DNA from: Bolinopsis microptera
Taxonomy: Eukaryota > Ctenophora > Tentaculata > Lobata > Bolinopsidae
Assembly (NCBI RefSeq): GCF_026151205.1
Contig: NC_087074.1
Coordinates: forward strand, 20,614,765-20,678,764
Direction: 5' to 3'
DNA: 64,000 nt
Part shown: positions 234 to 63,952 of the stretch, piece after piece
How the letters are laid out: each line of letters begins with the position of its first letter
How positions within the stretch are numbered: the stretch's first letter is position 1
The notes under the pieces: model-generated
Database searches by the model: none
What the model was told of the DNA's origin: nothing
What the model saw: the letters and a program-made list of their open reading frames with translations, nothing else
Program-made: the position numbers and the translations under genes

Positions 234-487
234 ACAACTACCCTATAGAATGTGAGACCTGCGCCAGACTAATTCAACGAGGGACCTGGTTCTATCGCCG
301 TCACTACAAATCCGTCCACCTCCGCCTTAAAGAGTTCACATGTCAGGATTGCAACAAAATGTTTGCTGAAAGTGGAACCCTGAAGCGACACAAGACAAGG
401 TGTCTTGCAATGATGAACAGGAAGACGCGCTCCTATGCTCATCTTACCCTGGATCCCAGGATCTTCCCTCCATCTGACGACTTCTGA
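234..487 (+). CDS. Z1: two-finger terminal exon
   Basis: The sequence shows an acceptor (gtttcag) followed by 2 nt that complete a split codon and 83 codons to TGA. Finger 1 has ligands C6/C9/H23/H28 and finger 2 has C36/C39/H52/C56 (C2HC, H-X3-C). They are joined by a linker reading HLRLKEF. The tail of about 27 residues is basic then Pro-rich. Fingers of this kind bind DNA in nuclear regulators; the target is unknown. There is no start codon, so it must be spliced to an upstream exon. I infer that it is one of a set of alternative 3' ends. It could also be an internal exon of a fused gene, but the in-frame stop argues against that. Confidence 0.8.
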
Positions 488-1082
488 GACTCGTCTAATT
501 GAGTTATTTTGTAGACTGGGCTGTGTAACCCCGTTATCTTATTCTCAGTAGACTTTCCATCCCCACTCAGATAAAGAGATTCATGTAGTTCTTAGCAATT
601 TACTTTTTTATTTGAATTCGATTTTCTCCTTCAATTTTTACCGCCTGATCTTATTACTACTTTATTTTCTATCGCTTTCTTAACAGATATAAAAGTGTAA
701 CTCACAGTTAAACTGAATGGTATGCGGGAAATATTTTTGGCAACTAGACAAATTTCACCAGTAATGTCGTCAGTTCACATATTACGTAATCATTTTATGG
801 AACATTTTGACCCCCCCCCCCTCCGTAATCAGTTTTACACATAGCTATTGTGTCAAAATTACACTAGCGTAATCATTCGGAAACCCCCCCCCCCCTCAGC
901 TGATTACGTAATATATGTGAACGACCCCTTATGAACCAAAGGAGTGAAATTTCCGTAATATCATAATCATGATTACAAAATAAGTCGAGGATCAGATACC
1001 TTACATTCCATAAATGTTATCCTAGCCTGGCACCCTGTCAATTTTCCTATTGACACGTGGTCTTTAAGTCACGTGCTTTCAG
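488..1082. other. Spacer containing a MITE-like inverted repeat
   Basis: This is AT-rich intergenic or intronic DNA. Apart from the inverted-repeat element annotated at 765-932 and two C-runs inside it, I see no gene. Confidence 0.6.
765..932. mobile_element. Small inverted-repeat element (MITE-like)
   Basis: The arms gttcacatattacgtaatca (773-793) and tgattacgtaatatatgtgaac (901-922) are near-perfect inverted copies. The right edge ends in cgacccctt and the interior carries two long C-runs. The size of about 165 bp and the absence of coding fit a non-autonomous DNA transposon. No clear target duplication is visible. Confidence 0.6.
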
Positions 1083-1336
1083 GACAATCCCTAGTGTACA
1101 AGCGAGTGAGCGTGACCTACGAAGGCTGCAAAGTGTGTGACAGACTCAAAGATAAACGAGGTCAATGGAACCGCCACTTCAAGACCGTCCATCTGAAGAT
1201 CAAGAACTATCAGTGTCCGTTCTGTAACCGGAAGTTTGGTGAAAGTGCTACAGTTAAAAAACATATGCGAGTATGCAAAGAGAAACAGGAGAACGTTAAA
1301 TGGGAGGAGGAGGAAGGAGGAGCTTATAAGCCTTGA
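1083..1336 (+). CDS. Z2: two-finger terminal exon
   Basis: The acceptor is gtgctttcag and the exon runs 83 codons to TGA. Finger 1 has C15/C18/H31/H36 and finger 2 begins CPFCNRKF and ends in HMRVC (H-X3-C). The linker is HLKIKNY. The C-terminus is a run of acidic residues (WEEEEGG). An AATAAA lies about 50 bp after the stop, which supports a terminal exon. The open frame runs upstream through the acceptor, so an in-frame GTG there is not a credible start. Confidence 0.8.
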
Positions 1337-1502
1337 TCTGTAATACTTGTGTTTTAAAACCTTAAGTTATGTTCCAAAATTTATTAATAAAATTGCTCCA
1401 CGATTGGCCGTGCACGAGTGTGACTCGTTGCAATTAGGTATGCAAAATTCGTCGTACTCCTTACATTACACCAATTATTAGTCAGACACATCTACATTTC
1501 AG

Positions 1503-1720
1503 TGGACGATAAAGTAATTGTGTGTCCAGTGTGCCACAAAGAGTTTACGGGCAGGCGGGAGGGCAACTTCCGTAGACATATTAGAACGGTTCATCTCCGT
1601 ATAAAGGACTTTGCCTGTCGTTACTGTAACCGTCCGTTTACCCTGAAACACCACCGTATCCGTCATGAACAAACGTGTAAAGAAGCTGAGAAGCTTATTA
1701 AGCTAGGCCCTGAGTCATGA
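1503..1720 (+). CDS. Z3: two-finger terminal exon with amplified tail
   Basis: The acceptor is ctacatttcag and the exon has 71 codons. Finger 1 is C7/C10/H25/H30 and finger 2 is C38/C41/H54/C58, with linker HLRIKDF. The last 19 codons (from RHEQTC to the stop) are the first unit of the 52-bp minisatellite that follows. The 3' coding end itself seeded that array. The stop codon arises where one repeat unit runs into the next. Confidence 0.8.
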
Positions 1721-3848: not shown

Positions 3849-4150
3849 TCTATGAGTTTGAAGCTGGCTACACTGTGACCATGAAGTGCCCTCTTTGCGA
3901 GATGAGGTTCTGTAGCAAGCGCAAGTCTCAGTATTACCGCCACTACAAGACTGTTCATCTGAAACTCAAAGAGTTCACCTGTGACTTCTGCTGCAAGAAG
4001 TTCAGTCGAGGAGAACACAAAAAAAGGCATATTCTGAGGAATTGCAAGCTGGCCAAACAGTTTATGGATGGCGTAGAAGGGGCACCGACCTCGGTGGAAA
4101 GCTCTGCCATGAATCTTACAAATTCTAATGATCTTTTTAGCCAGATCTAG
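3849..4150 (+). CDS. Z4: two-finger terminal exon
   Basis: The acceptor is ctctgtttcag, followed by 99 codons to TAG. Finger 1 is C13/C16/H31/H36 and finger 2 is C44/C47/H60/C65 (H-X4-C, one residue longer than in most cassettes). The linker is HLKLKEF. A tail of about 34 residues is polar and Ser/Asn-rich (SSAMNLTNSND) and contains no finger. Confidence 0.8.
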
Positions 4151-4862: not shown

Positions 4863-5194
4863 ATATCAGGCGACCCAAACGACTACGAAACCTGGGAGAC
4901 ACTGAAATGGTTGCATTTGACTACGAGAGCGTTCTCCGTAGCCACAAGTTCACCCACAACATCAGGGAATCACTCCGGGGCCTGGGTATCGCCAAGGACC
5001 ACTTTTACCGGGGGAGACACATCGCAGAGCTCCGGCTCATCGACAGAGACGTGTTCGATGGGCTGCTGAGACGGGCCATGGCCAATAACTCAAGTCTCTA
5101 CGAGTTTGATCGGATCTGCAAGTTCAAGATGTTGGACAGTACTATGAAACTTAAGGCGGAAATATTGAAGAGAAGTGGGAAATTATTACCATGA
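4863..5194 (+). CDS. Z5: terminal exon without zinc fingers
   Basis: It has the same acceptor phase as its neighbours (ttggcag, then 2 nt plus 109 codons to TGA) and higher GC than its flanks, so it looks like a real exon. It codes for no finger: there is one cysteine and no CXXC. The protein is basic and predicted helical, with segments such as RRPKRLRNLG, NIRESLRGLGIAKDHF and MKLKAEILKRSGKLLP. I do not recognise the family. It may be a different DNA- or protein-binding end supplied by the same splicing system. A degenerate unrelated exon is the alternative. Confidence 0.6.
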
Positions 5195-5580: not shown

Positions 5581-5810
5581 TTCGCGGAAAAGATTTCCTT
5601 GTGTGCGGAAGCTGCGGCAAACAGTTCCGTGGATCCCGTCAGAGCTCCAACTTTAGAACCCACTACAAAGCGGTCCACCTCGGTCTGAAGGAGCACCCGT
5701 GTCGGCTGTGTGGCAAGAGGTTCTCTCAGATGAATAACCGTAGTCGCCACGAGAAGATTTGTGACAAGAACAAGCGTGTACTAGAGAGGGGCTGGGGGGA
5801 GCGTGGTTGA
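5581..5810 (+). CDS. Z6: two-finger terminal exon
   Basis: The acceptor is cctgtcccag, followed by 75 codons to TGA. Finger 1 is C8/C11/H27/H32 with a GSRQSSNFRTH helix region. Finger 2 is C40/C43/H56/C60 with a QMNNRSRH helix. The linker is HLGLKEH. A short basic, Gly-rich tail (ERGWGERG) follows. Confidence 0.8.
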
Positions 5811-6281: not shown

Positions 6282-6505
6282 ATGGCGGTATAAGGTGTGG
6301 TGTGTGCAGGAAGACCTTCCTGGGGCCCCACTCCCAGCCCCACTACCGACTCCACTACAACACAGTGCACCTAAAGATCAGGAAACACCAGTGTGCTGTG
6401 TGTGGCAAGCGGTTCTCACAGAATGGGAGTAAGAACAGACATCAGAAAAGTTGTGAGGCTAAACGGTCCGGTGTAACGTGTAACATGACGTCACACCACG
6501 TGTAA
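6282..6505 (+). CDS. Z7: two-finger terminal exon embedded in a repeat
   Basis: The acceptor is ccaggttcag, with 73 codons to TAA. Finger 1 is C5/C8/H24/H29 and finger 2 is C37/C40/H53/C57 with helix SQNGSKNRH. The linker is HLKIRKH. The last 15 codons (about GVTCNMTSHHV) are translated 22-bp repeat, so the minisatellite has replaced the original C-terminus. The stop falls in the repeat. Finger residues are intact. The weak pyrimidine tract makes splicing efficiency uncertain. Confidence 0.75.
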
Positions 6506-6836: not shown

Positions 6837-7156
6837 TAGTGTCTGAAGGGGGATGCGAATGTCCGGATTGCGGCAGGAAGTTTAAAGGACCTCGCAGCGG
6901 GGAGATGTGCCGGACCCACTACGAAACAGTACATCTCAAGTTGCGCAGACACAGATGCGGCATTTGTGGCAAGGGTTTCTCTCAGAACGGGAGCATGAAC
7001 AGACATCAGAAAAGTTGTGAAGCACCGGAACTTCTTCTCAGTGAGAGTGGAGGTTATGTGTGTAGGTACTGCAGTGAACATTACAAGAGTAAGGGAGCCG
7101 CCAGGAAGCATGTTAAGAGCTGTTATAGGAGAGTATTTGAAAATAAGCAGTTATGA
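6837..7156 (+). CDS. Z8: three-finger terminal exon
   Basis: The acceptor is ctgtttcag, followed by 105 codons to TGA. Finger 1 is C2H2 (CPDC to HYETVH) and finger 2 is C2HC (CGIC to HQKSC) with helix SQNGSMNRH. After a 12-residue spacer, a third CX2C finger (CRYC, ending HVKSC) is near residues 72-92. The linker is HLKLRRH. The finger 2 helix is nearly the same as in Z7, which suggests duplication between neighbours. The 3' flank (7163-7200) resembles coding sequence of Z10. Confidence 0.8.
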
Positions 7157-7744: not shown

Positions 7745-7980
7745 ATGGGGTAGAGTGTTCGGTGTGTCGGAGAGGATTCCTAGGCCCGTACGCTATGCCT
7801 CACTTCGTCCTCCACTACCGGACGGTTCACCTGAAAATCAAGAAGTACCCTTGCGCTTTGTGCGGCATCCGCTTCTCTCGTATCACCAACCGGAACCGTC
7901 ACCAGAAAACCTGCCAGAATAAACAGTACTACCGTTACTTGGACCCCAACACTGGACATTTGATAAACCTGCCAGAATAA
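7745..7980 (+). CDS. Z9: two-finger terminal exon
   Basis: The acceptor is cctagtttcag, followed by 77 codons to TAA. Finger 1 (CSVC to HYRTVH) carries the LGPYAMPHFVLH segment, and finger 2 (CALC to HQKTC) has helix SRITNRNRH. The linker is HLKIKKY. The segment coding NKQYYRYLD is duplicated around the stop (7917-7945 and 7975-8001), an early stage of tail amplification. The second copy is untranslated. Confidence 0.8.
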
Positions 7981-8513: not shown

Positions 8514-8836
8514 GCATTTCAGAGCTATTCCAGCTGACTTACCGGCCAAACAGCGAGTTTTACAAACACGTGATAAACTGTGAGTTCTGTGATCGCCAGT
8601 TTTACCACGAGGGCGGCTACAGGTGCCACCTGACAAAGGTTCACGACAAGAGAACCTGGCCTGTAGGTTGTCCATCTCCTGCAAACATACCACGTGATGC
8701 CCATATTAGGAGTTATAACTCCAGACCGCCCTCCAAACGGATCATGACGTGTCAGTATTGTAACAAGGAGTTCACAAGTACGAGGAGTAAGTCTGGACAT
8801 GAGTGGAGATGTGCCCGTATATTTCACCCTGACTGA
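8514..8836 (+). CDS. Z10: two-finger terminal exon with HEWRC end
   Basis: The acceptor is gatttcag, with 106 codons to TGA. A second AG nine bases downstream (catttcag) keeps the same phase and could be used instead. Finger 1 is CEFC to HLTKVH without the HLKIK linker. It is followed by a long spacer (about 30 residues) that includes IPRDAHIRSY, then the C2HC finger CQYC to HEWRC. The HEWRC finger recurs in Z11, Z13 (HEWQC) and Z17. The last 12 codons became a 34-bp minisatellite. Confidence 0.8.
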
Positions 8837-10844: not shown

Positions 10845-11188
10845 TTGTCACTCTTGATGGTCTCATGTGTCCGTCATGTGACCGGACATTTCGTGGTCCA
10901 CGGAGAAAGGAAATATTCAAGACCCACTACTCGGCCATCCATCTTCACATCAAGAAGTATGTATGTTCCTACTGCACTAGACGGTTCGCTCAGAACGGGG
11001 CACGGAAACGACACGAACTGACGTGCAAAGGTCCCGGATCCTGGAATTCCAACTTCCAGATTGAAATAGTCGGCACTCAGCCAAATGCAACACCCGCTGT
11101 TTGTCGACACTGCAAGAAACAGTTCGATAGCTTGCGGAGTAGGAGCAGTCACGAGTGGCGGTGTAGCGACCGTTTCGGAGCCGGCTGA
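10845..11188 (+). CDS. Z11: three-finger terminal exon
   Basis: The acceptor is ttgcttcag, followed by 113 codons to TGA. Finger 1 (CPSC to HYSAIH) carries FRGPRRKEIFKTH, finger 2 (CSYC to HELTC) has helix AQNGARKRH, and a 27-residue spacer leads to finger 3 (CRHC to HEWRC). The linker is HLHIKKY. It combines the standard pair with the HEWRC module seen as the last finger of Z10 and as the only finger of Z13. Confidence 0.85.
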
Positions 11189-11687: not shown

Positions 11688-12205
11688 ATACAACAGGAGA
11701 ATTGATGGAAGTACTAGGACTAATGCCCTCCCCAAACATGGCTCCACCACTTCGAGATCCACCACTTCAAGATTCAGATGAGATCAGAGCCAGTATTATA
11801 TGTGAATCGTCCACACCACTTCAAGATTCAGATGAGATCAGAGCCAGTATTATATGTGAATCGTACACACCACTTACATATACGACAGCTTCAGGAATAA
11901 ATTTAACTATGAATGGGGTACGAGGCAGTAAGGTTGGCGTATCGTATGCATGCAAACACTGTGACAGAAAGTTCACCGTTAGCAGATCAATGTATGCGCA
12001 TCTCGGGAATTGTTTTCTCAACCCCTCAAGAAAGAAACGTAAACCTCGGTCTTCTAAATCCATTACAAATGTTTCCCGCCAAGATTTGCAGCCGCAGAGT
12101 AGCAGGGAGAAGAAGGTGCAGGTGGCAATCAGACGTTCCCAGAGTCCCACCAACGATGCAAATCTTCCACCAGGAAAGAGACAGTACAGGCGTTTTTGTG
12201 AGTAG
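11688..12205 (+). CDS. Z12: long single-finger terminal exon
   Basis: The acceptor is catttttag, followed by 171 codons to TAG, the longest cassette. It starts TTGELMEVLGLM, shared with Z13. Two copies of PLQDSDEIRASIICES follow, each with an internal in-phase ttcag that could act as an acceptor. The only finger is C2HC (CKHC to HLGNC, near residues 86-106). A basic C-terminal region (SRKKRKPRSSKS, then KRQYRR) looks like a nuclear localisation signal. With one finger, DNA contact may depend on the basic tail. Confidence 0.7.
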
Positions 12206-12610: not shown

Positions 12611-12897
12611 ATACAACAGGAGAATTGATGGAAGTACTAGGACTAATGTCCTCCTCGAACATGACTCCACCACTTCGAGATTACAGCTACAACCCGACCT
12701 CTGACGAGCCTGCTTTAGATTACAGCTACAACCCGACCTCTGACGAGCCAGCTTTAGATTACAGCTACAACCCGAACTCTAAGACATGTAAACATTGTGG
12801 CAGGGTCCTTGTGACTGTGAAGAGCAGGTCAGCTCATGAGTGGCAATGTAAAAAGGGACCTCCCAAGAAAAGACGTCGTTGGTTCTACTCAAAATAA
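12611..12897 (+). CDS. Z13: single-finger terminal exon with 13-residue repeats
   Basis: The acceptor is ccatttccag, followed by 94 codons to TAA. It begins with the Z12 leader (TTGELMEVLGLM) and contains three tandem copies of a unit based on DYSYNPTSDEPAL (39 bp). It then has one C2HC finger (CKHC to HEWQC) and a basic end (KKRRRWFYSK). Z12 and Z13 are clearly duplicates of each other whose middle parts expanded independently. The stop lies in the left target duplication of a SINE. Confidence 0.75.
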
Positions 12898-13732: not shown

Positions 13733-14025
13733 TTTCAACAGAGGATAGAATAATCCCAATGATCCTGAAATGTTCATTTTGTGGAAAGATATTCTACGGC
13801 CCAGAGAGAGATAACATGCACAGAAGACACACAACTTCAGCTCACCCTATTTCCTCCCACCTGATACAGAAGACAGTGCCAGAAGCAGAAAGATTGGTCA
13901 CGATCTGTACTCCTCGAAAACATGCCTGTCTACACTGTGACAGAGCTTTTGATACTCTTAAGGGTCTTAATATCCACCGGTCGCTTTATCACGAGCGGTC
14001 TTCTCCTTACGCCAAGAGGAAGTAG
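13733..14025 (+). CDS. Z14: two-finger terminal exon, KGLNIH type
   Basis: The acceptor is tattacttcag, followed by 96 codons to TAG. Finger 1 (CSFC to HTTSAH) lacks HLKIK and is followed by a spacer of about 30 residues. The last finger (CLHC to HRSLYH) has helix DTLKGLNIH, also found as the last finger of Z16. The end is basic (SSPYAKRK). A central CXXC finger appears to be missing compared with Z16, so this may be a deletion derivative of the three-finger form. Confidence 0.75.
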
Positions 14026-14359
14026 ATTGAACTCAATGAGTATTTGAGCGAGCAATAACAATTTGTTGTCGCCATGTCATGGTGCAGAGATGTTTAAATC
14101 AGCGAGGAGACTGGCCTTCTGACTCGACTATGTGAAACACCGTGTTATGTAATCTTTCATGTTTAAATTATAATGATTTTAATGTTTTGCCGTCAGAAAA
14201 ACGTTACTCTTATGTAGATTTGTGGGTCCTGTGTAAATTAGCCGGCTGAGCAAATTATATTAAGGTCACAGAAAGTTTAAAGCTGGGAATGTAAGAATTA
14301 TTTCCAAAAAATTTTGTCTCACCTAGAGTTGCAAGCTTTCACAATGATAATTCCTTCAG
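14026..14359. other. Non-coding spacer
   Basis: No feature is seen except the tract before Z15. Confidence 0.5.
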
Positions 14360-14580
14360 CTTCAAACGGGTTAGAATGCCCCATATGTGGATGGACTTTT
14401 GATGGTCCACGGAAAAACTCAAAGTTAGAGAACCACCTCCAAACTTTCCATCTCAAGATGACAACAAGCTTCCCTTGTGAGTTCTGCGGCCGCTCTTTTA
14501 ACAGGAAGGACAACATGAAGAGACACCAGGAGACTTGCCGAATGAACCCCAACCCCCGACCATCTAAAAGAAAGCTATAG
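14360..14580 (+). CDS. Z15: two-finger terminal exon
   Basis: The acceptor is aattccttcag, followed by 72 codons to TAG. Finger 1 (CPIC to HLQTFH) contains DGPRKNSKLENH. Finger 2 (CEFC to HQETC) has helix NRKDNMKRH. The linker is HLKMTTSF, one residue longer than usual. The basic tail ends PSKRKL. Confidence 0.8.
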
Positions 14581-14851: not shown

Positions 14852-15171
14852 TAGTGGCAGATCAAGGCTTGGAATGTCCAGTATGCAAGATGATCTTTAA
14901 GGGTCCCCGACAGAGAGGCGTTTACAAGACACATTTCGAAACCATACACCAAGGAAAGAAGATCAGCCCCACTTGCATTATATGTGGACGTACATTCAAC
15001 AAGGAGAACGACAGGAAAATGCACCAACAGACCTGCCCAAATATCCTGAAACCCAGACTGCCGTCCAAACATGTTTGTGTACACTGTGACAGAAACTTTG
15101 ACACCCTGAAAGGCCTCAACATCCACAGGACCCTCTACCATGAGCGATCCCCTCACGCAAGAAAGAGATGA
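14852..15171 (+). CDS. Z16: three-finger terminal exon
   Basis: The acceptor is ccccttttcag, followed by 105 codons to TGA. Finger 1 is CPVC to HFETIH, finger 2 CIIC to HQQTC, and finger 3 CVHC to HRTLYH with helix DTLKGLNIH as in Z14. The first linker is HQGKKISP. The C-terminus is basic (SPHARKR). Z14, Z15 and Z16 lie together and share parts, which suggests local duplication and trimming. Confidence 0.85.
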
Positions 15172-15413: not shown

Positions 15414-15754
15414 TATTCGAAGAGCGTGCAATTGCGCGAGAACACCTCACGGCGAGGTGTCCAGTATGTGGTAAAACGTTCCGTGGTCCTCACTGTAAAG
15501 GAGTACTCTCAACCCACATAAACACGATCCACCTCAAAGTTAAGAGCTGGCACTGTGTCTTCTGTGCACGTGTCTTCTTCCGAAACGACAGTAGGAGGAG
15601 ACATCAGCTAACGTGCTTCAGGAACCCCGACCTGGGGAGAGAGGCTGGCGGCTCAGAGACTGTCTCGGATGAGTTTTGTAAATATTGTCATCAGATGTTT
15701 GGGAGTGTGAAGAAGAGAGCAGCTCATGAGTGGCGATGTGGACGGACTTTATAG
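15414..15754 (+). CDS. Z17: three-finger terminal exon
   Basis: The acceptor is ttccgcttcag, followed by 112 codons to TAG. A leader of about 16 residues precedes finger 1 (CPVC to HINTIH), finger 2 (CVFC to HQLTC, helix RNDSRRRH), a Gly/acidic spacer, and finger 3 (CKYC to HEWRC). The linker is HLKVKSW. An AATAAA lies about 170 bp after the stop. It shares its last finger type with Z10, Z11 and Z13. Confidence 0.85.
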
Positions 15755-16230: not shown

Positions 16231-16487
16231 GCGGTTGGGAGTGCCTGCTATGTGGAAAGATATTCACCGGACGTCAGAGCAAATCAGTCTTCAAACTCCA
16301 CCTGGACACAATCCACTATCAGAAGCAAAGTTCACCCTGTCAACACTGTGACAAGGTGTTTAACCGGGCTGGAAACCGGAAGAGACACGAACGCTCGTGC
16401 CGGGAGAATCCTGCTCATCAGATGCGGGAGGAACAGTTCAGACTGAGAGTGCACGACCCAGCAGAGGTGTCCGGTTGGAGATCCTGA
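16231..16487 (+). CDS. Z18: two-finger terminal exon
   Basis: The acceptor is cgctcatacag, followed by 84 codons to TGA. Finger 1 (CLLC to HLDTIH) has TGRQSKSVFKLH and finger 2 (CQHC to HERSC) has helix NRAGNRKRH. The linker is HYQKQSSP. The tail (MREEQFRLRVHDPAEV) is charged, and its DNA is duplicated once after the stop (16485-16552), an early tandem amplification. Confidence 0.8.
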
Positions 16488-16928: not shown

Positions 16929-17137
16929 TGGGTAACGACGACCATGGAATGGTGTGTACCGTCTGCGGCAAGGTTTACCGGGACAAGTTTACCTGTAGGA
17001 AACACTACCAAACAATACACCTCAAACGACGGGATTACGCGTGTATATACTGTCAAAAACTGTTCTCACAAAAAGGAAATAGATGTAGACACGAACTAGT
17101 TTGTAAACATAAACGTCCGTTACCACCTTGGAGTTGA
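16929..17137 (+). CDS. Z19: two-finger terminal exon
   Basis: The acceptor is ctaccccag, followed by 68 codons to TGA. Finger 1 (CTVC to HYQTIH) is shorter than usual, without the FRGPxx insert (YRDKFTCRKH). Finger 2 (CIYC to HELVC) has helix SQKGNRCRH. The linker is HLKRRDY. The tail ends PLPPWS. Confidence 0.8.
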
Positions 17138-17597: not shown

Positions 17598-17809
17598 ATC
17601 TAGATGGAGTCACGTGCCCAGTATGCGGGAAAGCATTCCGAGGGCACCACTACAAGAACACCTTCAAAGTTCACTATCGTACAGTGCACCTCAAGATCCG
17701 GAACTACATCTGCACCTACTGTAGTAGGAGGTTTACACAGTACGGGTCAAAGAAAAGGCACATGAGCACGTGCATTTATAATGTTGGTAACGGTGGAAAC
17801 GGCACATGA
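17598..17809 (+). CDS. Z20: two-finger terminal exon with amplified tail
   Basis: The acceptor is cctgttaccag, followed by 69 codons to TGA. Finger 1 (CPVC to HYRTVH) carries RGHHYKNTFKVH. Finger 2 (CTYC to HMSTC) has helix TQYGSKKRH. The linker is HLKIRNY. The last codons (HMSTCIYNVGNGGN) are the first unit of a 44-bp array. Confidence 0.85.
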
Positions 17810-18656: not shown

Positions 18657-18862
18657 TTTACACAGAAGAAGGAATCGTTTGTCCAGTTTGTCAAAAAATA
18701 TTTAGAGGTCACACAAACAAAAGTTCATTCAGAGTTCACTTTCGAACTATCCACCTTAACATCAAGAACTTTGTTTGCCACCTCTGCGGCCGGAAGTTCA
18801 CTCAGAACGGCTCTAGAAAGAGACACATGCAGGTGTGTTCTGTACCCCCATTTACCAGGTAA
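18657..18862 (+). CDS. Z21: two-finger terminal exon
   Basis: The acceptor is gtgatttcag, followed by 67 codons to TAA. Finger 1 (CPVC to HFRTIH) has RGHTNKSSFRVH. Finger 2 (CHLC to HMQVC) has helix TQNGSRKRH. The linker is HLNIKNF. The tail SVPPFTR runs into a 16-bp array that supplies the stop, and the segment ttctgtacccccatttacc recurs at the far end of that array. Confidence 0.85.
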
Positions 18863-19717: not shown

Positions 19718-19941
19718 TGCTTTCCGTGCTACCTGATAACTTGAACGAAGACTGCTGTTTGTGTCCAGTTTGTGGTAAAATCTTTCTTGGAGTCTGGAAA
19801 AAGAAGAACGCCCATCTTCACTACCGCACTGTTCACTTGAAACAGCAAAACTACAAGTGTTCGTTTTGCGACAAACGTTTTGGTCAATGTGGTTCGAGGA
19901 AGAGACACGAGCACACCTGTCCACGACGCTCAACTTGCTGA
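19718..19941 (+). CDS. Z22: two-finger terminal exon
   Basis: The acceptor is ttactttcag, followed by 73 codons to TGA. Finger 1 (CPVC to HYRTVH) carries LGVWKKKNAHLH. Finger 2 (CSFC to HEHTC) has helix GQCGSRKRH. The linker is HLKQQNY. The array upstream has pushed a partial copy of the exon start 150 bp away. This copy keeps a usable acceptor because the duplication regenerated it. Confidence 0.85.
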
Positions 19942-20169: not shown

Positions 20170-20387
20170 TGATGAAGATCAAAGCAGACGCCTACCACCG
20201 GGCTAAGGACCAGAGGAAGTTTGTTTGCGTTCTGTGTTGCAAGTCCTTCTACCGTCGCCGTCACCTGGAGAACCATCACCGGACTCACACGGGAGAGAGG
20301 CCCTTTGTGTGTGGTCTGTGTGGGAAACGCTTCGGAGACAGTTCTAACTACAGGAAACACATCAAGCAGCCACATATGATACCTTGA
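20170..20387 (+). CDS. Z23: two-finger terminal exon with canonical linker
   Basis: The acceptor is ttactttcag, followed by 71 codons to TGA. It differs from the rest: finger 1 (CVLC to HHRTH) and finger 2 (CGLC to HIKQPH) are joined by THTGERPF, the classic Krueppel-type linker, and both are C2H2. The leader is basic. The standard phase and + orientation show that it belongs to the set. It may be an older or independently acquired cassette. Confidence 0.85.
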
Positions 20388-21017: not shown

Positions 21018-21223
21018 CCAGCAGGAGAATAGCGTACCAGCACAAGTGCCCCATCTGCGAGAAGATATTTCAGACCAAACAGAACTGTGCTACCCACTAC
21101 CAAGCTATCCACCTTAAAGCGAGGCCTTTCCAGTGTGAAACGTGTGGCAGGTTCTTTGGGTTCCACCAGTCCAAGATTAGACACTCTAAGACATGTCCTG
21201 CATTGAAAATGAAACGTTTTTAG
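21018..21223 (+). CDS. Z24: two-finger terminal exon
   Basis: The acceptor is taactttcag, followed by 67 codons to TAG. Finger 1 (CPIC to HYQAIH) has a short middle (QTKQNCATH). Finger 2 (CETC to HSKTC) has helix GFHQSKIRH. The linker is HLKARPF. The basic end is KMKRF. Confidence 0.8.
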
Positions 21224-21589: not shown

Positions 21590-21771
21590 GAGGTTACAAT
21601 TGTCCCGTTTGTAATAAGACGTTTCTTGGGAAAAGCTACAAGCAAGATTACGCTCGACACTACCAAGCAATCCATCTTAAATTGCGCCAGTACAGATGCG
21701 AGAGGTGTGGCAAGATGTTTGCGTACACATTCACCAGAGCTCGACACATGAAACGAAACTGTAGAGGTTGA
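21590..21771 (+). CDS. Z25: two-finger terminal exon
   Basis: The acceptor is ttcctgacctag, followed by 59 codons to TGA. Finger 1 (CPVC to HYQAIH) contains LGKSYKQDYARH. Finger 2 (CERC to HMKRNC) has helix YTFTRARH. The linker is HLKLRQY. It is close to Z26 in all parts, so the two are recent duplicates. The acceptor may derive partly from the CTAGTTACC array. Confidence 0.75.
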
Positions 21772-22608: not shown

Positions 22609-22796
22609 GGTGTTACAACTGCCCCGTCTGCAGTAAGGTGTTTGCAGGAAGGAACTTCAGGCAGGACTACCTGAGACACTACCAGTCTGTTCACCTAAAG
22701 TTACGGCAGTATCAGTGCGAGATGTGCGGCAAGATGTTCAGTCTGGCTCAGACCAGGAACAGACACGTGAGGTCCAAACATCTCAGTCACATGTGA
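22609..22796 (+). CDS. Z26: two-finger terminal exon
   Basis: The acceptor is aacactatcag, followed by 61 codons to TGA. Finger 1 (CPVC to HYQSVH) contains AGRNFRQDYLRH. Finger 2 (CEMC to HVRSKH) is C2H2 rather than C2HC, with helix LAQTRNRH. The linker is HLKLRQY. It is the sister of Z25. A fragment of another cassette follows directly (P1). Confidence 0.8.
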
Positions 22797-24416: not shown

Positions 24417-24521
24417 ACAACCGAGACTGTAATAACTTGTTCCTAGTTACCACCTAGTTACCACCTAGTTACCACCTAGCGCCTAGTTACCACCTAGTTA
24501 CCCCTCGTTACCGCCTAGTTA
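24417..24521 (+). repeat. Partial Z27-like exon start plus GTTACC array
   Basis: The segment caaccgagactgtaataact (from 24420) matches the start of Z27, then breaks into ctagttaccac repeats. The exon start resumes at 24522. No acceptor AG precedes this copy. Confidence 0.75.
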
Positions 24522-24742
24522 CAACCGAGACTGGAATAACTTGTTCGGCGTGTTCAAGAATGTTCCGTGGACCCCAACAGAAGTGCCACTATCGGATCCA
24601 CTACCGTACAGTACATCTCAAGATAAAAGATTAAGTTTGCAGTTGGTGTGGCAGGCCATTCTCCCGAAACAGCAACCTACAGCGTCACCAGGGATTTTGT
24701 AAAGTTGCGAAAAAGCAAACATTTAACAGATCCGGTTCTTGA
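24522..24742 (+). pseudogene. P2: dead copy of Z27
   Basis: It matches Z27 at most positions over the two fingers. The linker codon after AAA-GAT has become TAA (near 24631), so finger 2 is cut off. The normal acceptor has been replaced by a GTTACC array ending cctagttacaaccgag. Finger 2 still reads CSWC to HQGFC with its ligands, so the damage is recent. Confidence 0.85.
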
Positions 24743-25013: not shown

Positions 25014-25219
25014 CAACCGAGACTGTAATAACTTGTCCGGCGTGTTCAAGAATGTTCCGTGGACCCCAACAGAAGTGCCACTACCGGATTCACTACCGTG
25101 CAGTACATCTCAAGATAAAAGATCACGTTTGCACTTGGTGTGGCAAGGGATTTTCCCGCAACAACAAGTTACAGCACCACAAGAGAACTTGCAAAGTTGG
25201 GAAATTGCAGAGCTACTAG
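25014..25219 (+). CDS. Z27: two-finger terminal exon
   Basis: The acceptor is ataatatttcag, followed by 67 codons to TAG. Finger 1 (CPAC to HYRAVH) carries RGPQQKCHYRIH. Finger 2 (CTWC to HKRTC) has helix SRNNKLQHH, with an H-H pair before the ligand spacing. The linker is HLKIKDH. The tail is followed by a short GTTACC array. P2, 490 bp upstream, is its broken duplicate. Confidence 0.85.
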
Positions 25220-25539: not shown

Positions 25540-25766
25540 GCAATTTTGAGGTAAACGAAAGCGTCAGATGTGAAGTTTGCCACCGAGTTTTCTACGGTTA
25601 CCAGCGGAAAAACCACTTCAAAATCCACTACAGATCAGTACACTTGCGGATCAAGGAACACGGGTGTGCCTGGTGCGGGAAACTGTTCGGCAGAGTTGAT
25701 TCAAGCAGGAGGCACGAGAAGATATGCCCTATGAGGGATGTCAAACATTCTAGAAAATATGAGTAG
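25540..25766 (+). CDS. Z28: two-finger terminal exon
   Basis: The acceptor is cgaatttcag, followed by 74 codons to TAG. Finger 1 (CEVC to HYRSVH) contains YGYQRKNHFKIH. Finger 2 (CAWC to HEKIC) has helix GRVDSSRRH. The linker is HLRIKEH. AATAAA occurs about 100 bp after the stop. Finger 2 (GCAWCGKLFGR) is close to those of Z29 and Z30. Confidence 0.8.
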
Positions 25767-26294: not shown

Positions 26295-26503
26295 AAACAA
26301 ACAACACAGAAGTAGTCAAGTGTCAAATCTGCACAGCAACGTATCGCGGTTATAACAGAAACCGGAACCTTAGATTTCACATTGACGCTGCACATTACGG
26401 GATCAAGAAACACAGCTGTATTTGGTGTGGGAAGCTGTTCGGTAGGGCTGACTGTACCAGGAAACATGAGAAGAGTTGTAGGATGAGACTCAGAGCTATT
26501 TAA
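26295..26503 (+). CDS. Z29: two-finger terminal exon
   Basis: The acceptor is tttgtaccaccag, followed by 68 codons to TAA. Finger 1 (CQIC to HIDAAH) contains RGYNRNRNLRFH. Finger 2 (CIWC to HEKSC) has helix GRADCTRKH. The linker HYGIKKH differs from HLKIK and recurs in Z32 (HYGIKEG). The duplicated acceptor at 26131 makes a short alternative end possible. Confidence 0.8.
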
Positions 26504-26714: not shown

Positions 26715-26923
26715 ATGGCACACCAACGGTACAGTGTAACATCTGCTTCCGGGTATTTAGTGGACCTCCCAGTGTAGGGAAGCAGTCCCGTGAGCGTCAC
26801 ATCAAGCACGTGCATTTCAAGATTAAGGAGATCCCGTGTGAGTATTGTGGAAAACTCTTCGGCAGGTCAAGCACGCGGAACGCGCATTATAAGAGATGTC
26901 CTAGACGGAGGAATTATGATTGA
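26715..26923 (+). CDS. Z30: two-finger terminal exon
   Basis: The acceptor is cactcctctag, followed by 68 codons to TGA. Finger 1 (CNIC to HIKHVH) carries SGPPSVGKQSRERH, 2-3 residues longer than average. Finger 2 (CEYC to HYKRC) has helix GRSSTRNAH. The linker is HFKIKEI. The frame is open upstream into the intron; the leader there is AT-rich and not credible coding. Confidence 0.8.
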
Positions 26924-29052: not shown

Positions 29053-29118
29053 CAGAAAACGGAGTCTCCGACGCGGACGGCACATCAAATACGTCCACCA
29101 GAGGGTCAAAGACGACTG
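29012..29118 (+). pseudogene. P3: broken cassette at the end of the 43-bp array
   Basis: The last array unit continues into a complete finger 1: CTLC, GGKDRKRSLRRGRH, IKYVH, then QRVKDD and TGA. Finger 2 is lost. The following 46-bp unit has tgtcagttctga, where the second CXXC cysteine codon is a stop, and it is repeated three times (to 29246). The acceptor in front of the array is out of phase by one base. Confidence 0.7.
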
Positions 29119-38069: not shown

Positions 38070-38384
38070 ACATACATCGAGACGTTTGAACGAAACAACG
38101 AACAGTGGGAGAAATGCCAATTCTGCCAACGAGAATTCAAAGGAAAGAACCGCAGACCCATGATGAAGAGACACATCCTCTCTGTTCACTTCAACGTCAA
38201 AAACCACAGCTGTCAGGCGTGCGGAAAGAAGTTCTTCCGGAGGAGCGACCTGGACAGACACGTCAGACAGCATGTTGAGTGTATCTGTCCGGGTTGTGGG
38301 AGGAAGTTCTTTAGAAGAGTGGATCTGGAGAGACACATTGAGGACCATCACTTCGGGCTGAACAATGTTGGTGGTTTGGAGTAG
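38070..38384 (+). CDS. Z40: three-finger terminal exon, acceptor out of phase
   Basis: There are 104 codons from the AG at 38068-38069 to TAG. The fingers are CQFC to HILSVH, CQAC to HVRQH, and CPGC to HIEDHH, with leader TYIETFERNNEQWEK, close to Z38 and Z39. This is the only intact cassette whose finger frame begins 0 rather than 2 bases after the acceptor. Standard-phase splicing would stop after five codons (TGA). A one-base change during array growth is likely, so it may be a silent or newly dead cassette. Confidence 0.7.
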   Translation, partial: TYIETFERNNEQWEKCQFCQREFKGKNRRPMMKRHILSVHFNVKNHSCQACGKKFFRRSDLDRHVRQHVECICPGCGRKFFRRVDLERHIEDHHFGLNNVGGLE

Positions 38385-39100: not shown

Positions 39101-39351
39101 GTTCACCCCACCCGGATATAGATGACTACGGGGGAGGTATTATAGATTACAAGTCTGACTGTCTAGCGCTTCAGTCAATCTGTAGGGTTTGCGGTAAAGT
39201 TTTCCTGGGCAGAAACCACAAATCTCTGGTCAGTCGTCATGTTAGGGGCGTTCATCAGAAGCTTCGACCCTACCTGTGCAAGATCTGTGGCAAAAGTTAC
39301 CAGCAGTCCAATAATTTAAAGTCTCACAATTGTAAACTGCTGCGGTTCTGA
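39101..39351 (+). CDS. Z41: two-finger terminal exon
   Basis: The acceptor is cacatttacag, followed by 82 codons to TGA. A leader of about 25 residues is acidic (PDIDDYGGG). Finger 1 (CRVC to HVRGVH) contains LGRNHKSLVSRH. Finger 2 is CKIC, helix QQSNNLKSH, with H-N-C close together (SHNC), so the last ligand spacing is H-X1-C and may not bind zinc normally. The linker is HQKLRPY. Confidence 0.75.
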
Positions 39352-39615: not shown

Positions 39616-39809
39616 CTTATTCAGAAGAAGTTGCCTGTCGAATTTGTGGAAAGGTTTTCCTCGGTAAAAACAAGAATTCACTTCTCCGGAGACATATTGA
39701 TGGAGTGCACCTTAAGCTGAGACCCTACAAGTGCCCTTACTGTACTAAAGACTTTCAACAGTCGGGCAATCGCACTCAGCACATCAAACAGCATCACTTT
39801 ATAAGATAG
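39616..39809 (+). CDS. Z42: two-finger terminal exon with amplified tail
   Basis: The acceptor is tatcctgcag, followed by 63 codons to TAG. An in-phase AG eight bases on (ttattcag) is an alternative. Finger 1 (CRIC to HIDGVH) contains LGKNKNSLLRRH and finger 2 (CPYC to HIKQHH) has helix QQSGNRTQH. The linker is HLKLRPY, as in Z41. The codons for TQHIKQHHFIR and the stop begin a 1.4-kb array. Confidence 0.85.
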
Positions 39810-42060: not shown

Positions 42061-42148
42061 CTAACTCCTCCTCCCAGGCACATTACCCCTCACATTACCC
42101 TCCCATAACCCCTCACATTACCCCTCCCAGGCACATTACCCCTCATAG

Positions 42149-42354
42149 AATTGACGGGAGAAGGAACGGGAGCCTCAAAGTGTCCTATCTGCCACAAAGA
42201 ATTTCAGAACCCCCGTAACGCGGCACGACACTATGAGACTGTACACCTAAAGCTTAAAAACTACGGTTGTCCATTTTGTGGGAGAAGATTTGGCCAGAAG
42301 GCCACGGCGAAGGCTCACGTCCTTAGAGTTCATGCTATGAGCCACCTAAAATGA
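42149..42354 (+). CDS. Z43: two-finger terminal exon
   Basis: The acceptor is acccctcatag, followed by 67 codons to TGA. Finger 1 (CPIC to HYETVH) is short (QNPRNAARH). Finger 2 (CPFC to HVLRVH) is C2H2 with helix GQKATAKAH. The linker is HLKLKNY. Short cattacccctc repeats form the pyrimidine tract. Confidence 0.8.
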
Positions 42355-42714: not shown

Positions 42715-42920
42715 GTTCAGATTCGGAGACCAGGTGCGGGTTATGTGACAAGGCCTTCAGAGGTATATCCCGCAGAGCAAACCTTTACCGTCACATCCAC
42801 ACCATCCACTCCAAGAGCTACAACTTCCCCTGTCCCGTCTGCAACAAGATCTTCAACCAAAAGAGCAATTTGAAGAGGCACGTCAAGAATATTCATCTCC
42901 AGAACTTTAATATCCCTTGA
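42715..42920 (+). CDS. Z44: two-finger terminal exon
   Basis: The acceptor is caatttcag, followed by 67 codons to TGA. An in-phase AG five bases downstream (gttcag) is a possible alternative. Finger 1 (CGLC to HIHTIH) contains RGISRRANLYRH. Finger 2 (CPVC to HVKNIH) is C2H2 with helix NQKSNLKRH. The linker is HSKSYNFP, clearly diverged from HLKIK. Confidence 0.8.
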
Positions 42921-43380: not shown

Positions 43381-43613
43381 GTCTGACGTGTCCTCTGTGT
43401 AAGAAACGGTTCCAATGTCGGAGAAATCGAGACCGCCACTTTGACTCGGTTCACCTGAAGCTGAAGAACTTCAAGTGTCCACTGTGTGAACACAGGTACT
43501 CCCAGAAAGTACACCTCAAGGGTCACATGAAGCGAATCCACCACTTTGTGTACGATGACAACGAGGCTGCTGGGTTCCCTGAATTGGGGACAAGTCTGAA
43601 GAAGACGCCGTGA
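43381..43613 (+). CDS. Z45: two-finger terminal exon
   Basis: The acceptor is ttaaccaatcag, followed by 76 codons to TGA. There is almost no leader: finger 1 starts at residue 3 (CPLC to HFDSVH, QCRRNRDRH). Finger 2 (CPLC to HMKRIH) is C2H2 with helix SQKVHLKGH. The linker is HLKLKNF. An acidic tail (VYDDNEAAG) follows. The stop lies at the start of tacgtga repeats (43607-43668). Confidence 0.8.
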
Positions 43614-44807: not shown

Positions 44808-45043
44808 TGCCAGGACAGCAGTGGCGGTGTAAGGTGTGTGACAGGGTGTTCCACGGTAAGGGGTGCAAGTCCCAATACAACCGCCACTACAAGGTAGTCC
44901 ACCTCAACATCAAGCCCTTCCGGTGCGACCAGTGCGGCAAACGGTTCAGTCAGAAGTGTAACAGGAGACAACACATGGCACGGCATCACGGTGCTGAGCA
45001 GGACCTGGGGTATGCTCTCAGTATGCTGAGAAAGACGGAGTGA
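44808..45043 (+). CDS. Z46: two-finger terminal exon
   Basis: The acceptor is cccctcctcccag, followed by 77 codons to TGA. Finger 1 (CKVC to HYKVVH) contains HGKGCKSQYNRH. Finger 2 (CDQC to HMARHH) has helix SQKCNRRQH. The linker is HLNIKPF. The tail (DLGYALSMLRKTE) is amphipathic. It is the last cassette before a 10-kb stretch occupied by mobile elements. Confidence 0.85.
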
Positions 45044-45162
45044 GATGCTTTTCTATATATATGTATATATATAGATTTCTATATCGTGCTAAGATCTGGA
45101 GCTCTGTTTCATGAGTTTGGTTGGAATCAGGGAAATCAGTCCAATGTGGATGAACCTGATTA

Positions 45163-55183: not shown

Positions 55184-55413
55184 GTTCCCTTAACATTTCC
55201 TCATCCTACTTATGGCAACTACGGAAAGAAGAGGATGCGGGAAGAAAAAGTGTCGAATGTCCGGTCTGTTTCAAAATATTCAGCAAGAAAAGTAACTTGA
55301 AGCAGCATCTACGATCAGTACATCAGAAACTTCGGCCCTTCAAATGCGTGACTTGTGGAAGAACGTTTACTCAGATGAGGGATATGAAGGAGCACGCTAA
55401 GCGGATTCACTAG
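55184..55413 (+). CDS. Z47: two-finger terminal exon
   Basis: The acceptor is caactatttcag, followed by 75 codons to TAG. The leader is Ser-rich then basic. Finger 1 (CPVC to HLRSVH) is compact (SKKSNLKQH) and finger 2 (CVTC to HAKRIH) is C2H2 with helix TQMRDMKEH. The linker is HQKLRPF. The stop is the first TAG of a GGTTACTAG array, and finger 2 is partly duplicated beyond it. Confidence 0.85.
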
Positions 55414-56003: not shown

Positions 56004-56212
56004 GTTACGAATACATCTGCCATTTCTGCAACAAGCAGTTCAGCAAGAGAGCCACCCTGACACGACACGTGACCACCATACATTTCCAAGTGAAGCCATT
56101 CCAGTGTCACATGTGCAAACGGTCCTTTTCACAGAAAACATGTCTGAAGATCCACCTGGAGAGCGCCGAGAAGAGGGGATCGTGTTTTATTAAAAATCAG
56201 TTTCGGAAGTGA
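56004..56212 (+). CDS. Z48: two-finger terminal exon, H-X9-C type
   Basis: The acceptor is acggtattacag, followed by 68 codons to TGA. Finger 1 (CHFC to HVTTIH) starts at residue 5. The linker is HFQVKPF. Finger 2 has CHMC, helix SQKTCLKIH, then LESAEKRGS and C, so histidine and last cysteine are nine residues apart. This spacing is the same in Z49-Z53 and P6. Cys inside the helix (KTC) is an alternative fourth ligand. Confidence 0.85.
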
Positions 56213-56440: not shown

Positions 56441-56673
56441 GACTCATCTGCTATGTCTGCAAACAAGAGTTCTCGCAGAAAGGAAACCTTAACCGACATA
56501 TCAGAACAATCCATCATCAGATCAAAAAGTTTCAATGTGACAGATGCAAGCGAACGTTTTCGCAGAAAACCTGCCTTAAAATCCATTTGGAGAGTGCAGA
56601 AAAACGGGGATCATGCTATCCTGGTTGGATTGGTAATGCTTACGAAACTAGTGGAAATAACAAACAATTGTGA
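56441..56673 (+). CDS. Z49: two-finger terminal exon, H-X9-C type
   Basis: The acceptor is tgtatcaaccag, followed by 76 codons to TGA. Finger 1 is CYVC to HIRTIH (SQKGNLNRH). Finger 2 is CDRC, helix SQKTCLKIH, then LESAEKRGSC, identical to Z48 from the helix on. The linker is HHQIKKF. The tail is longer (WIGNAYETSGNN). Z48 and Z49 are tandem duplicates 230 bp apart. Confidence 0.85.
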
Positions 56674-58777: not shown

Positions 58778-58983
58778 GTCATGTTTGCCTGCGCTGCAAC
58801 CAAAAGTTCAGTCACCGAGGAAATCTGAGACGGCACATTTCTACGATTCACCACCAAGTGAAGCCATTCCAATGTGTCACGTGTCAGCGAAGCTTTTCTC
58901 AGAAACAAGCTCTCAACATTCACCTGAAAAATTCCGAACGAAGGGGCTGGTGTTTCATTCCGGATTCTTACCGTGACTTTTAA
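58778..58983 (+). CDS. Z50: two-finger terminal exon, H-X9-C type
   Basis: The acceptor is ttaataacccag, followed by 67 codons to TAA. Finger 1 (CLRC to HISTIH) starts at residue 3. The linker is HHQVKPF. Finger 2 is CVTC, helix SQKQALNIH, then LKNSERRGW and C. Short tail IPDSYRDF. Confidence 0.85.
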
Positions 58984-61142: not shown

Positions 61143-61342
61143 GTATCTGCCGTTTTTGCAACAAGAGTTTCAGCCGGGGATGGAACATGAACCAACACAT
61201 CTCAACCATCCACCACAAGGTCAAACGGTTCCTGTGTCACAGGTGCGGGCGGAACTTTACTCGCAAGAATAGTCTGACTAACCACCTGAAGAGGTCCCTG
61301 CAGGACGGGAAATGTTTCGCTAGAAATGATTCGCATCGTTAA
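61143..61342 (+). CDS. Z51: two-finger terminal exon, H-X9-C type
   Basis: The acceptor is aactcgcag with standard phase, followed by 65 codons to TAA. Finger 1 is CRFC to HISTIH (SRGWNMNQH). The linker is HHKVKRF. Finger 2 is CHRC, helix TRKNSLTNH, then LKRSLQDGK and C. The intron end is the 21-bp array, with no pyrimidine tract, so usage is doubtful although the coding part is intact. Confidence 0.7.
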
Positions 61343-62099: not shown

Positions 62100-62515
62100 T
62101 GCTACGGAATTGTAACCTAGTAACCAGCCAGTAACCTAGTAACCAGCCAGTAACCTAGTAACTACGGAATTGTAACCTAGTAACCAGCCAGTAACCTAGT
62201 AACCAGCCAGTAACCTAGTAACTACGGAATTGTAACCTAGTAACCAGCCAGTAACCTAGTAACCAGCCAGTAACCTAGTAACTACGGAATTGTAACCTAG
62301 TAACCAGCCAGTAACCTAGTAACCAGCCAGTAACCTAGTAACTACGGAATTGTAACCTAGTAACCAGCCAGTAACCTAGTAACCAGCCAGTAACCTAGTA
62401 ACTACGGAATTGTAACCTAGTAACCAGCCAGTAACCTAGTAACCAGCCAGTAACCTAGTAACTACGGAATTGTAACCTAGTAACCAGCCAGTAACCTAGT
62501 AACCAGCCAGTAGGT
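62100..62515 (+). repeat. 60-bp higher-order array
   Basis: Seven nearly perfect 60-bp units, each cggaattgtaacctagtaac plus two accagccagtaacctagta parts. Confidence 0.95.
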
Positions 62516-63031
62516 GCTACATTAGAGGGCTGAGGTGCTACGGAATTGTTTGTTGGCGTATAAATACTTACTCTAGGTTGGTTTGGCAGGGATTGCTTCT
62601 GGACAACAGTAAGTAGTACGTCCTCCATTCATTCCTGGTTCAGATCTTTCTGTAGATTCCATTCCAAGAGTGAGTTGTTGGTGATGGCGGTGTATCCTTT
62701 GGTTGGCGGGGTACCGGGTATCGGGAAACGTCTCCTTAGAGGGCTGAGGTGCTACGGAATTGTTTGTTGGCGTATAAATGCTGGCCCTTTCTACACAACA
62801 ACTTTAATTATGAGACATGATGATACGCTTTGAGTCGAACTCAATTTATGTATTGACTGGCAATGTAAAATGCTTTCCGGCCTTTTATATGATAATAAAT
62901 TTGACAATTTTTCGTTCCAAATTTCTAATGAAAGTTCTGCATATAAATTTCCGAATCAATCTTTCGAAATTCATACGTGGTATCTGACAAAAAATTTAAT
63001 TTTTACTTGCAAAATATCATCACGACTCCAG
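62516..63031. other. Spacer with repeated TATA-like segment
   Basis: The segment gagggctgaggtgctacgga (62086, 62525, 62740) precedes the 60-bp array and, at the last two sites, ttgtttgttggcgtataaat. The TATAAA could be a promoter element, but no transcript is evident. Confidence 0.4.
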
Positions 63032-63222
63032 GTATTTGCTGTTATTGCAACAAAAGATTTAGCACAAAAGGGAATCTGAACAAACATGTTGCTTCCATCC
63101 ACCTCAACGTAAAGCCTTTCAAGTGTCATGGATGTCAGCAGAGATTTTCTCAAAGAGTTCACCTCAAAGTTCACATAGAACGGGCTCAGCGGAACGGGGC
63201 GTGCTTCATAAAATATTCATAG
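63032..63222 (+). CDS. Z52: two-finger terminal exon, H-X9-C type
   Basis: The acceptor is cacgactccag, followed by 62 codons to TAG. Finger 1 (CYC after ICC, to HVASIH) contains STKGNLNKH. The linker is HLNVKPF. Finger 2 is CHGC, helix SQRVHLKVH, then IERAQRNGA and C. Short tail FIKYS. Confidence 0.85.
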
Positions 63223-63758
63223 AAATATCTTTGAACACGACGCTAAAAACACTACTGTTCAGAATCAGAGTAATGTCATTAATTTTGTTTAGTTTGTTTG
63301 ATATTGAATGCAATTGAAGTTATGCTCTGCTAAATGGTGGTTTTTGATGAGTTCTGAACGTCGTTGTTAGATTAATCTGGTTTTAGATGGAATAAGATTG
63401 GAATATGCATAAGATTAGGAATTTCCGATTTAATTCTGAAATATCCATTCTTAATAATTTCTTAATGAATATTTAAGACAAGATCAAATGTTGACTTTCA
63501 AAATTGCTAAGTTATTGGAAATAAATGATTCACTTTGTTTTCGGTGCTGCACCAAATTGAATGTATGTTTTTATCTATATTTTTGGTATGACATGGCCTT
63601 ATGGTACAATAATATAAAGGTGTTTAATTTGTATATTTCAAAATTTAACAATGACAAAAACTTACTGATAATTAATTAGTGATCTTTAAGGATATGTTTT
63701 TTAAAGTAACAAGAAATTTTTGCAATTTCAAATACATAATATAATTACTTCTTCTCAG
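63223..63758. other. Non-coding spacer
   Basis: AT-rich; nothing supported. Confidence 0.5.
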
Positions 63759-63952
63759 ATATCACTACTTGTCGGTATTGCAACAAGAGGTTCAGTCACA
63801 GAGGAAATTTGAACCAACATGTGGCGACAATCCACCACAAGGTCAAGCCCTTCCAGTGTAACTGGTGCCATCAGAGGTTCTCACAGAGGATTACCCTCAG
63901 GATACACATGGAAAGGTCTGAGAAGAACGGGAGCTGCTACATCAAGAAGTGA
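63759..63952 (+). CDS. Z53: two-finger terminal exon, H-X9-C type
   Basis: The acceptor is acttcttctcag, followed by 63 codons to TGA. Finger 1 (CRYC to HVATIH) contains SHRGNLNQH. The linker is HHKVKPF. Finger 2 is CNWC, helix SQRITLRIH, then MERSEKNGS and C. End YIKK. It lies 48 bp from the window edge, so the series probably continues. Confidence 0.85.

Follow-up and report, generated by a model that had tools for sequence, protein, structure and literature searches.

An array of zinc-finger cassettes in the ctenophore Bolinopsis microptera as the probable variable 3' half of one gene

A one-strand array of finger cassettes

We analysed a 64-kb stretch of the genome of the ctenophore Bolinopsis microptera (contig NC_087074.1, positions 20,614,765 to 20,678,764; hereafter the window) that carries an array of short coding cassettes. 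Across the whole window 54 cassettes were tabulated, all on the + strand, of which 53 encode zinc fingers and one, at 4863-5194, does not (cassettes are named below by their first position). A sequence-only reading of the same DNA had described an array of 53 zinc-finger cassettes (234 to 63952), every one of them on the + strand and with its own splice acceptor and its own stop; our + strand frame scan and the 54-row cassette table bear out this description.

With a strict finger pattern, the + strand yields 38 two-finger and 52 one-finger open reading frames (ORFs) and the minus strand none of either kind, and 20 simulated windows (first-order Markov) gave no two-finger ORFs and 2 single-finger ORFs. 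The median coding length of a cassette is 75 residues (range 37-168, n = 54, the 37 residues being those of the cut-short cassette 24519). From a stop to the next acceptor the median gap is 537 bases and the maximum about 10.1 kb; the 10 kb from 45044 to 55183 are free of cassettes and contain a LINE-like (long interspersed nuclear element-like) element. Sorted by regular expression, which overlooks second fingers with wide spacing, the 54 cassettes comprise 19 with a C2H2 and a C2HC finger, 17 with two C2H2 fingers, 6 with three fingers, 11 with one and 1 with none. Finger ends of the C2H2 and C2HC types are also those of the Drosophila gene lola. Seven zinc-ligand columns are invariant in the aligned cassettes (20 of 54 aligned), at a mean column identity of 27%. 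A search of solved structures with the cassette alignment gave general finger proteins in the 60 matches listed out of 245, and viral contigs gave one match to cassette 17598 (36% over 44 residues), which we take as chance. No Rfam family matches the window at gathering scores.

The non-finger cassette resembles the Pfam domain CCDC106, with a score of 30.0 bits just under the curated cut-off of 30.2 (E 5.7e-7); its structure model has a mean predicted local distance difference test (pLDDT) score of 45. The array had been thought to continue past both ends of the window. At the right end it does look unfinished, but nothing in the first 233 bases shows such a continuation on the left. The further claim that no cassette has a start codon was too strong. 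An in-frame ATG lies between the acceptor and the first Cys pair in 8 of the 53 finger cassettes (3849, 10845, 11697, 12620, 13742, 14327, 16929 and 20170), and the other 45 have none there.

Reading phase, selection and cassette order

The phase in which the cassettes are entered was scored with a frame-blind splice model built from general knowledge, applied to each AG from the upstream in-frame stop to the first Cys. The top-scoring AG lies two bases ahead of the frame (phase +2) in 46 of 55 finger-like ORFs. Two of these 55 rows are not intact cassettes (34929 is decayed and 38342 a chance ORF), and after their removal the best AG is in phase +2 in 45 of 53 finger cassettes. Seven of the remaining eight have a lower-scoring +2 acceptor, which was chosen for the table, and 38070 has none. 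Where an ORF offers a single possible AG, so that no choice is involved, the phase is +2 in nine of nine. The acceptors of the final table were chosen by inspection with the phase already known, and that of cassette 4863 was outside the scored set; on this table 53 of 54 cassettes, including the non-finger one, have a +2 acceptor, in agreement with the earlier statement that all but one enter the frame two bases past the AG. The acceptor of the exception, 38070, lies on the border of a minisatellite in which it is repeated. Of the 54 chosen acceptors, 47 carry C and 7 carry T at -3, and the commonest form is TTCAG (24 of 54).

Between 19615 and 31695, arrays of an 11-bp unit, CCTAGTTACCA, stand directly ahead of acceptors. 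The next acceptor follows within 40 bases for six of nine TAGTTAC runs, compared with two of eight runs of the reverse complement. These arrays may be a source of pyrimidine tracts, or may base-pair with their complements at other places in the pre-mRNA; a docking or selector role for them was considered and is not supported.

The cassettes are under purifying selection, pN being well below pS. For the 1,093 pairs that shared 45 or more aligned codons (cassette 24519 omitted), the median proportions of synonymous (pS) and nonsynonymous (pN) differences are 0.84 and 0.44. The 22 closest pairs have pS of at least 0.66 and pN of 0.18-0.35, so that synonymous sites are near saturation even there. 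Adjacent cassettes are more alike than pairs in general (mean identity 0.454 over 47 pairs vs 0.366), as expected from tandem duplication. At helix positions -1, 2, 3 and 6 of the standard C2H2 scheme we count 45 distinct quartets in 52 cassettes, each read from the first C-X2-C-X12-H past residue 20, which is usually but not always finger 2.

Counterparts of some of these cassettes lie in the ctenophore Mnemiopsis leidyi. A first protein search gave one match, the hypothetical protein P0002 (ACHWQZ_G005929; 65% identity), and a second gave three, namely two further M. leidyi models, P0003 (G005926) and P0004 (G005927), and one generic finger protein. Among the matches found, M. leidyi is the only source of named proteins that carry cassettes of this array, which speaks against an insect origin of the window and most likely for a ctenophore other than M. 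leidyi. Eight clear and two ambiguous matches follow the order of the window, the best matches being 6282, (6282/7745/6837), 7745, 8523, 10845, 14852, 17598, 25540, 26715 and (29498), with the ambiguous ones in brackets. The clear matches are 61-78% identical. If gene numbers follow the chromosome, the chance of eight clear matches falling in order is 2 in 8 factorial, or 5e-5; within single models the order holds for three clear matches in P0004 and four in P0002. On this comparison of sequences the cassette order is conserved between the B. microptera window and M. leidyi.

Each of the three M. leidyi models chains pieces of 2 to 5 cassettes. Taken at face value, this favours the arrangement that P0002-P0004 imply, in which one huge poly-finger protein takes up the cassettes as internal exons. 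We find that hardly credible. Each cassette ends in a stop, in several of the chained pieces the end of the cassette is missing, no enrichment of strong donor-like sites is seen past the stops, and P0006, a protein introduced below, ends 3 residues before the stop of cassette 3849 in the window, at a stop or a contig edge. The three models look instead like mis-joined pieces of alternative ends that were annotated as separate hypothetical proteins.

A few members of the array are broken or out of phase (24519, 38070 and the stretches at about 27842-29244 and 34938-35168), and minisatellites run into exons. Such features could mean that the locus is mostly a graveyard, with few cassettes used and the others decaying copies. 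This is quite unlikely, as the other 52 cassettes keep an open frame from a +2 acceptor through to the stop, synonymous sites are near saturation with fewer nonsynonymous changes, and the eight clear matches in M. leidyi retain 61-78% identity.

Four minisatellites (1662-3222, 8800-10610, 17752-18239 and 39856-41199) start inside the terminal part of the cassette before them or copy that part, and exon ends seem to seed the growth of repeats. The broken cassettes and these exon-end minisatellites suggest that ends are gained and lost while their order is conserved.

A candidate front half

A third search, with the cores of cassettes 234, 1083, 1503 and 3849 as query, returned eight proteins at E <= 0.001 among 67 candidates. 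Seven are multi-finger proteins by their Pfam list, some from other animals; the snail, firefly and butterfly matches (28-30% identity) were set aside as general multi-finger proteins by score and Pfam list. The best match, P0006, shows 98% identity across 26% of the query. This protein of 472 amino acids comes from a 1,496-bp contig and represents a cluster of 4 member sequences. Its residues 377-472 correspond to cassette 3849 from the first whole codon, which places the 376/377 junction exactly at the predicted acceptor. Counting the split codon, residues 376-472 are identical to the cassette at 91 of 97 positions, and an Ile/Val exchange at residue 376 is among the six differences. The unspliced window encodes Val there, and the Ile of P0006 requires an upstream A joined to the TC of the cassette (A|TC), which implies A as the last base of the upstream exon. 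Were that base T, a stop codon would arise in 12 of the 54 cassettes (11 if 8514 rather than 8523, the position used in our counts, is the acceptor of the cassette ending at 8836); any other base, including the A implied by P0006, creates none.

Residues 1-376 of P0006 have no match in the 64-kb window (tblastn, E up to 10). Since different DNA precedes cassette 3849 in the window, P0006 is most easily explained as the product of a spliced RNA, whose source may be another allele or a close species. The exact junction between front and cassette means that a longer gene has one or more of the cassettes as alternative 3' ends.

The same junction bears on the idea that the cassettes are separate small genes, forming an operon-like run of trans-spliced units that receive their 5' end from a ctenophore spliced leader. 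Leader trans-splicing is widespread in ctenophores according to the passages cited of PMC8527503, and bare acceptors are consistent with such units. Those passages describe gene clusters in Hormiphora that share a leader of 35-48 bases as their 5' exon, and the published leader has no ATG. A translation start supplied by that leader is thereby ruled out, and 45 of the 53 finger cassettes reach the first Cys pair without an in-frame ATG; thus the array does not show the leader 5' end and own start codon per unit that mark such a cluster. A spliced leader also offers no reason for one reading phase, and P0006 carries on its cassette a coding front of 375 residues, contrary to a leader-only 5' end. 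No 15-base piece of the Hormiphora leader occurs in the window, although the leader of B. microptera itself may differ. We regard separate leader-spliced genes as very unlikely.

The sequence-only reading had named a BTB domain as the probable front. No BTB domain appears in the P0006 front in a Pfam scan at E up to 5, a range limited by the HMMER filters, which discard most matches above E of about 0.1; the sole match, at E 1.6, is to an unrelated domain. A single-sequence structure model of low confidence (mean pLDDT 40) contains helices and no strands, with residues from about 31 to 70 helical at pLDDT 61-76. Beyond this helical part the front is Ser/Pro-rich by eye, and two short stretches resemble SUMO sites. 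Against solved structures, finger proteins match P0006 through its cassette, together with weak rows above E 0.01; against viral contigs P0006 has no match.

The cassettes are listed in Table 1. In the cassette-free stretch, the LINE-like element spans 49081-54368, with one endonuclease plus reverse transcriptase ORF at 51792-54368 and a small cysteine-rich ORF upstream at 49081-49524.

Table 1. Cassettes of the window and decayed copies among them (ZF, zinc-finger; single AG, one possible acceptor; percentages are identities)
Feature	Position	Strand	Remarks
ZF cassette, 2 fingers	234..487	+	phase +2
ZF cassette, 2 fingers	1083..1336	+	phase +2
ZF cassette, 2 fingers; end copied in 52-bp minisatellite 1662-3222	1503..1720	+	
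ZF cassette, 2 fingers; sole one with transcript-like support (P0006)	3849..4150	+	
Non-finger cassette, CCDC106-like C-terminal domain	4863..5194	+	phase +2, acceptor picked by eye
ZF cassette, 2 fingers	5581..5810	+	
ZF cassette	6282..6505	+	M. leidyi P0003 match, 78%
ZF cassette, 3 fingers	6837..7156	+	possible M. leidyi P0003 match, ambiguous
ZF cassette	7745..7980	+	M. leidyi P0004 match, 72%
ZF cassette	8514..8836	+	M. leidyi P0004 match, 77% over 43 residues; acceptor 8514 or 8523, both phase +2
ZF cassette, 3 fingers	10845..11188	+	M. leidyi P0004 match, 61%; single AG
ZF cassette, 1 finger, long	11697..12205	+	
ZF cassette, 1 finger	12620..12897	+	
ZF cassette	13742..14025	+	
ZF cassette	14327..14580	+	
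ZF cassette, 3 fingers	14852..15171	+	M. leidyi P0002 match, 67%
ZF cassette, 3 fingers	15414..15754	+	
ZF cassette	16231..16487	+	
ZF cassette	16929..17137	+	single AG
ZF cassette	17598..17809	+	M. leidyi P0002 match, 65%
ZF cassette	18666..18862	+	
ZF cassette	19718..19941	+	
ZF cassette, classical TGERP-type linker, first whole codon ATG, unlike neighbours	20170..20387	+	
ZF cassette	21018..21223	+	
ZF cassette	21590..21771	+	
ZF cassette	22609..22796	+	
ZF cassette, in-frame stop (24632-24634) after finger 1; finger 2 in same frame beyond, to ~24715	24519..24634	+	
ZF cassette	25014..25219	+	
ZF cassette	25540..25766	+	M. leidyi P0002 match, 77%
ZF cassette	26295..26503	+	
ZF cassette	26715..26923	+	M. 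leidyi P0002 match, 72%
ZF cassette	27358..27566	+	
Decayed ZF cassette with 43-bp and 46-bp minisatellites running through it; outside the 54	~27842..29244	+	
ZF cassette	29498..29703	+	best M. leidyi match P0002, 47%, ambiguous
ZF cassette	30804..31048	+	
ZF cassette	31720..32033	+	
ZF cassette	32452..32657	+	
ZF cassette	32912..33150	+	
ZF cassette	34249..34481	+	
Decayed ZF cassette, finger 1 broken; outside the 54	~34938..35168	+	
ZF cassette, 3 fingers	35399..35709	+	
ZF cassette	36225..36448	+	
ZF cassette, 3 fingers, only one without +2 acceptor	38070..38384	+	
ZF cassette	39122..39351	+	
ZF cassette	39625..39809	+	
ZF cassette	42131..42354	+	
ZF cassette	42715..42920	+	
ZF cassette	43381..43613	+	single AG
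ZF cassette	44808..45043	+	
ZF cassette	55184..55413	+	
ZF cassette	56004..56212	+	single AG
ZF cassette	56441..56673	+	single AG
ZF cassette	58778..58983	+	single AG
ZF cassette	61143..61342	+	single AG
ZF cassette	63032..63222	+	single AG
ZF cassette	63759..63952	+	single AG

Alternative terminal exons and known systems

The window very probably represents the variable 3' half of a single ctenophore gene, which combines a constant front with alternative terminal exons. The earlier reading had already taken it for the variable half of a constant-front gene, and P0006, joined exactly at the acceptor of cassette 3849, supports that. The constant N-terminal part would be encoded outside the window, end in A at a phase-1 junction and be spliced to one cassette per mRNA. 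As an alternative terminal exon, each cassette would bring both the stop and a DNA-binding end, in most cases with a first finger of C2H2 type and a second of C2H2 or C2HC type. The proteins would then agree in their N-terminal part, a probably helical N-terminus before a long Ser/Pro-rich region, and differ from mRNA to mRNA in DNA-binding specificity. Such a gene would explain the scarcity of start codons, the single phase, the stops, the phase of the non-finger end, the selection and P0006. We infer that the remaining cassettes are used like 3849, with a separate poly(A) site for every cassette, and that the front exon lies to the left and is for the most part joined in cis.

A variant of this reading, which does not exclude it, holds that front and cassettes are transcribed separately and then united in trans, as happens for part of the mod(mdg4) output. 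It is favoured by the abundant leader trans-splicing of ctenophores (passages cited of PMC8527503) and by the absence of a match to the front in the 64 kb. The data can be explained without trans joining, and as all listed cassettes are on one strand, cis joining suffices; we consider the variant possible but doubtful.

Several observations weigh against a constant front with alternative terminal exons. A product joined to the P0006 front was found for one cassette (3849), the RNA origin of P0006 is one we infer, and the tblastn comparison with the 64-kb window did not locate the constant exon. Little can be learned about the front from the P0006 model, whose confidence is low. Of the 54 cassettes, one is cut short by an early stop and another lies out of phase, and there are two further, decayed stretches. 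Within 300 bases past the stops, AATAAA or ATTAAA occurs in 16 of 54 cassettes vs 15.3-15.8 expected, which is no enrichment, and a broader set of poly(A) variants reaches p of about 0.06-0.07 only. A hexamer scan past the stops gave nothing strong.

In the non-coding, non-repeat DNA of the window, AATAAA occurs 24 times on the + strand vs 80 on the minus strand, about three times more rarely. Its scarcity on the + strand could reflect selection against early polyadenylation; permuted hexamers are likewise skewed, slightly less so, and the skew is not used as evidence.

The nearest parallels are the insect genes lola and mod(mdg4), the first acting in neuron wiring and the second in chromatin and nerve pathfinding. 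The passages cited of PMC1947980 and PMC11426971 give lola 20 isoforms with a BTB front and mostly C2H2 or C2HC finger ends, three being without fingers, and those of PMC4667647 give mod(mdg4) 31 ends in D. melanogaster and up to 41 in Plutella xylostella, mostly FLYWCH. With 53 + 1 ends the array is larger than either on these counts, as had been claimed. On our reading it would share with lola a constant N-terminal part and many alternative C-terminal exons, mostly C2H2 or C2HC but not all with fingers, and with mod(mdg4) a common 5' part and many alternative 3' ends. A common entry phase, with 38070 as the exception, and own stops are present here as in the 3'-exon arrays of both genes. The front of lola, however, is a TTK-type BTB domain, whereas the ctenophore gene has no BTB match in P0006 and more ends; the ends of mod(mdg4) are mostly FLYWCH and some lie on the opposite strand (trans), whereas those listed here are C2H2 or C2HC and all on one strand. 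The TTK-type BTB of lola and mod(mdg4) is reported, in the passages cited of PMC11426971, as not found outside Arthropoda. Among the literature matches listed (open access, judged by title and opening of the abstract), none describes such a ctenophore array, and the nearest is the Hormiphora work (PMC8527503); its clusters resemble the present gene in their shared 5' exon and differ in that this exon is a leader of 35-48 bases rather than a coding front of about 375 residues. In M. leidyi, ACHWQZ_G005926, G005927 and G005929 show the same cassette order under annotation as separate hypothetical proteins.

Our best reading is that the gene works like lola and mod(mdg4) but stands outside their BTB family. 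A lola-like way of working combined with a failed BTB test makes an independent origin the likelier reading, and the gene probably arose independently of both. A bolder proposal, which we put forward only tentatively, is that ctenophores independently evolved the largest known constant-front, variable-end transcription factor gene, with a non-BTB front and well over 50, perhaps 100, ends, in an order that predates the split from Mnemiopsis. Its products, possibly trans-joined through the spliced-leader machinery, would diversify cell identity in animals whose nervous system is maybe of separate origin.

To our knowledge, genes of this design at this scale are known only from insects. The array, a candidate front half and the phase of the junction are now specified. 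If the reading is correct, an unrelated and larger ctenophore gene would show that the design arises repeatedly and that a BTB domain is not needed for it. It would also mean that comb jellies hold a diversity of transcription factors that gene counts miss and that the M. leidyi annotation carries as hypothetical proteins.

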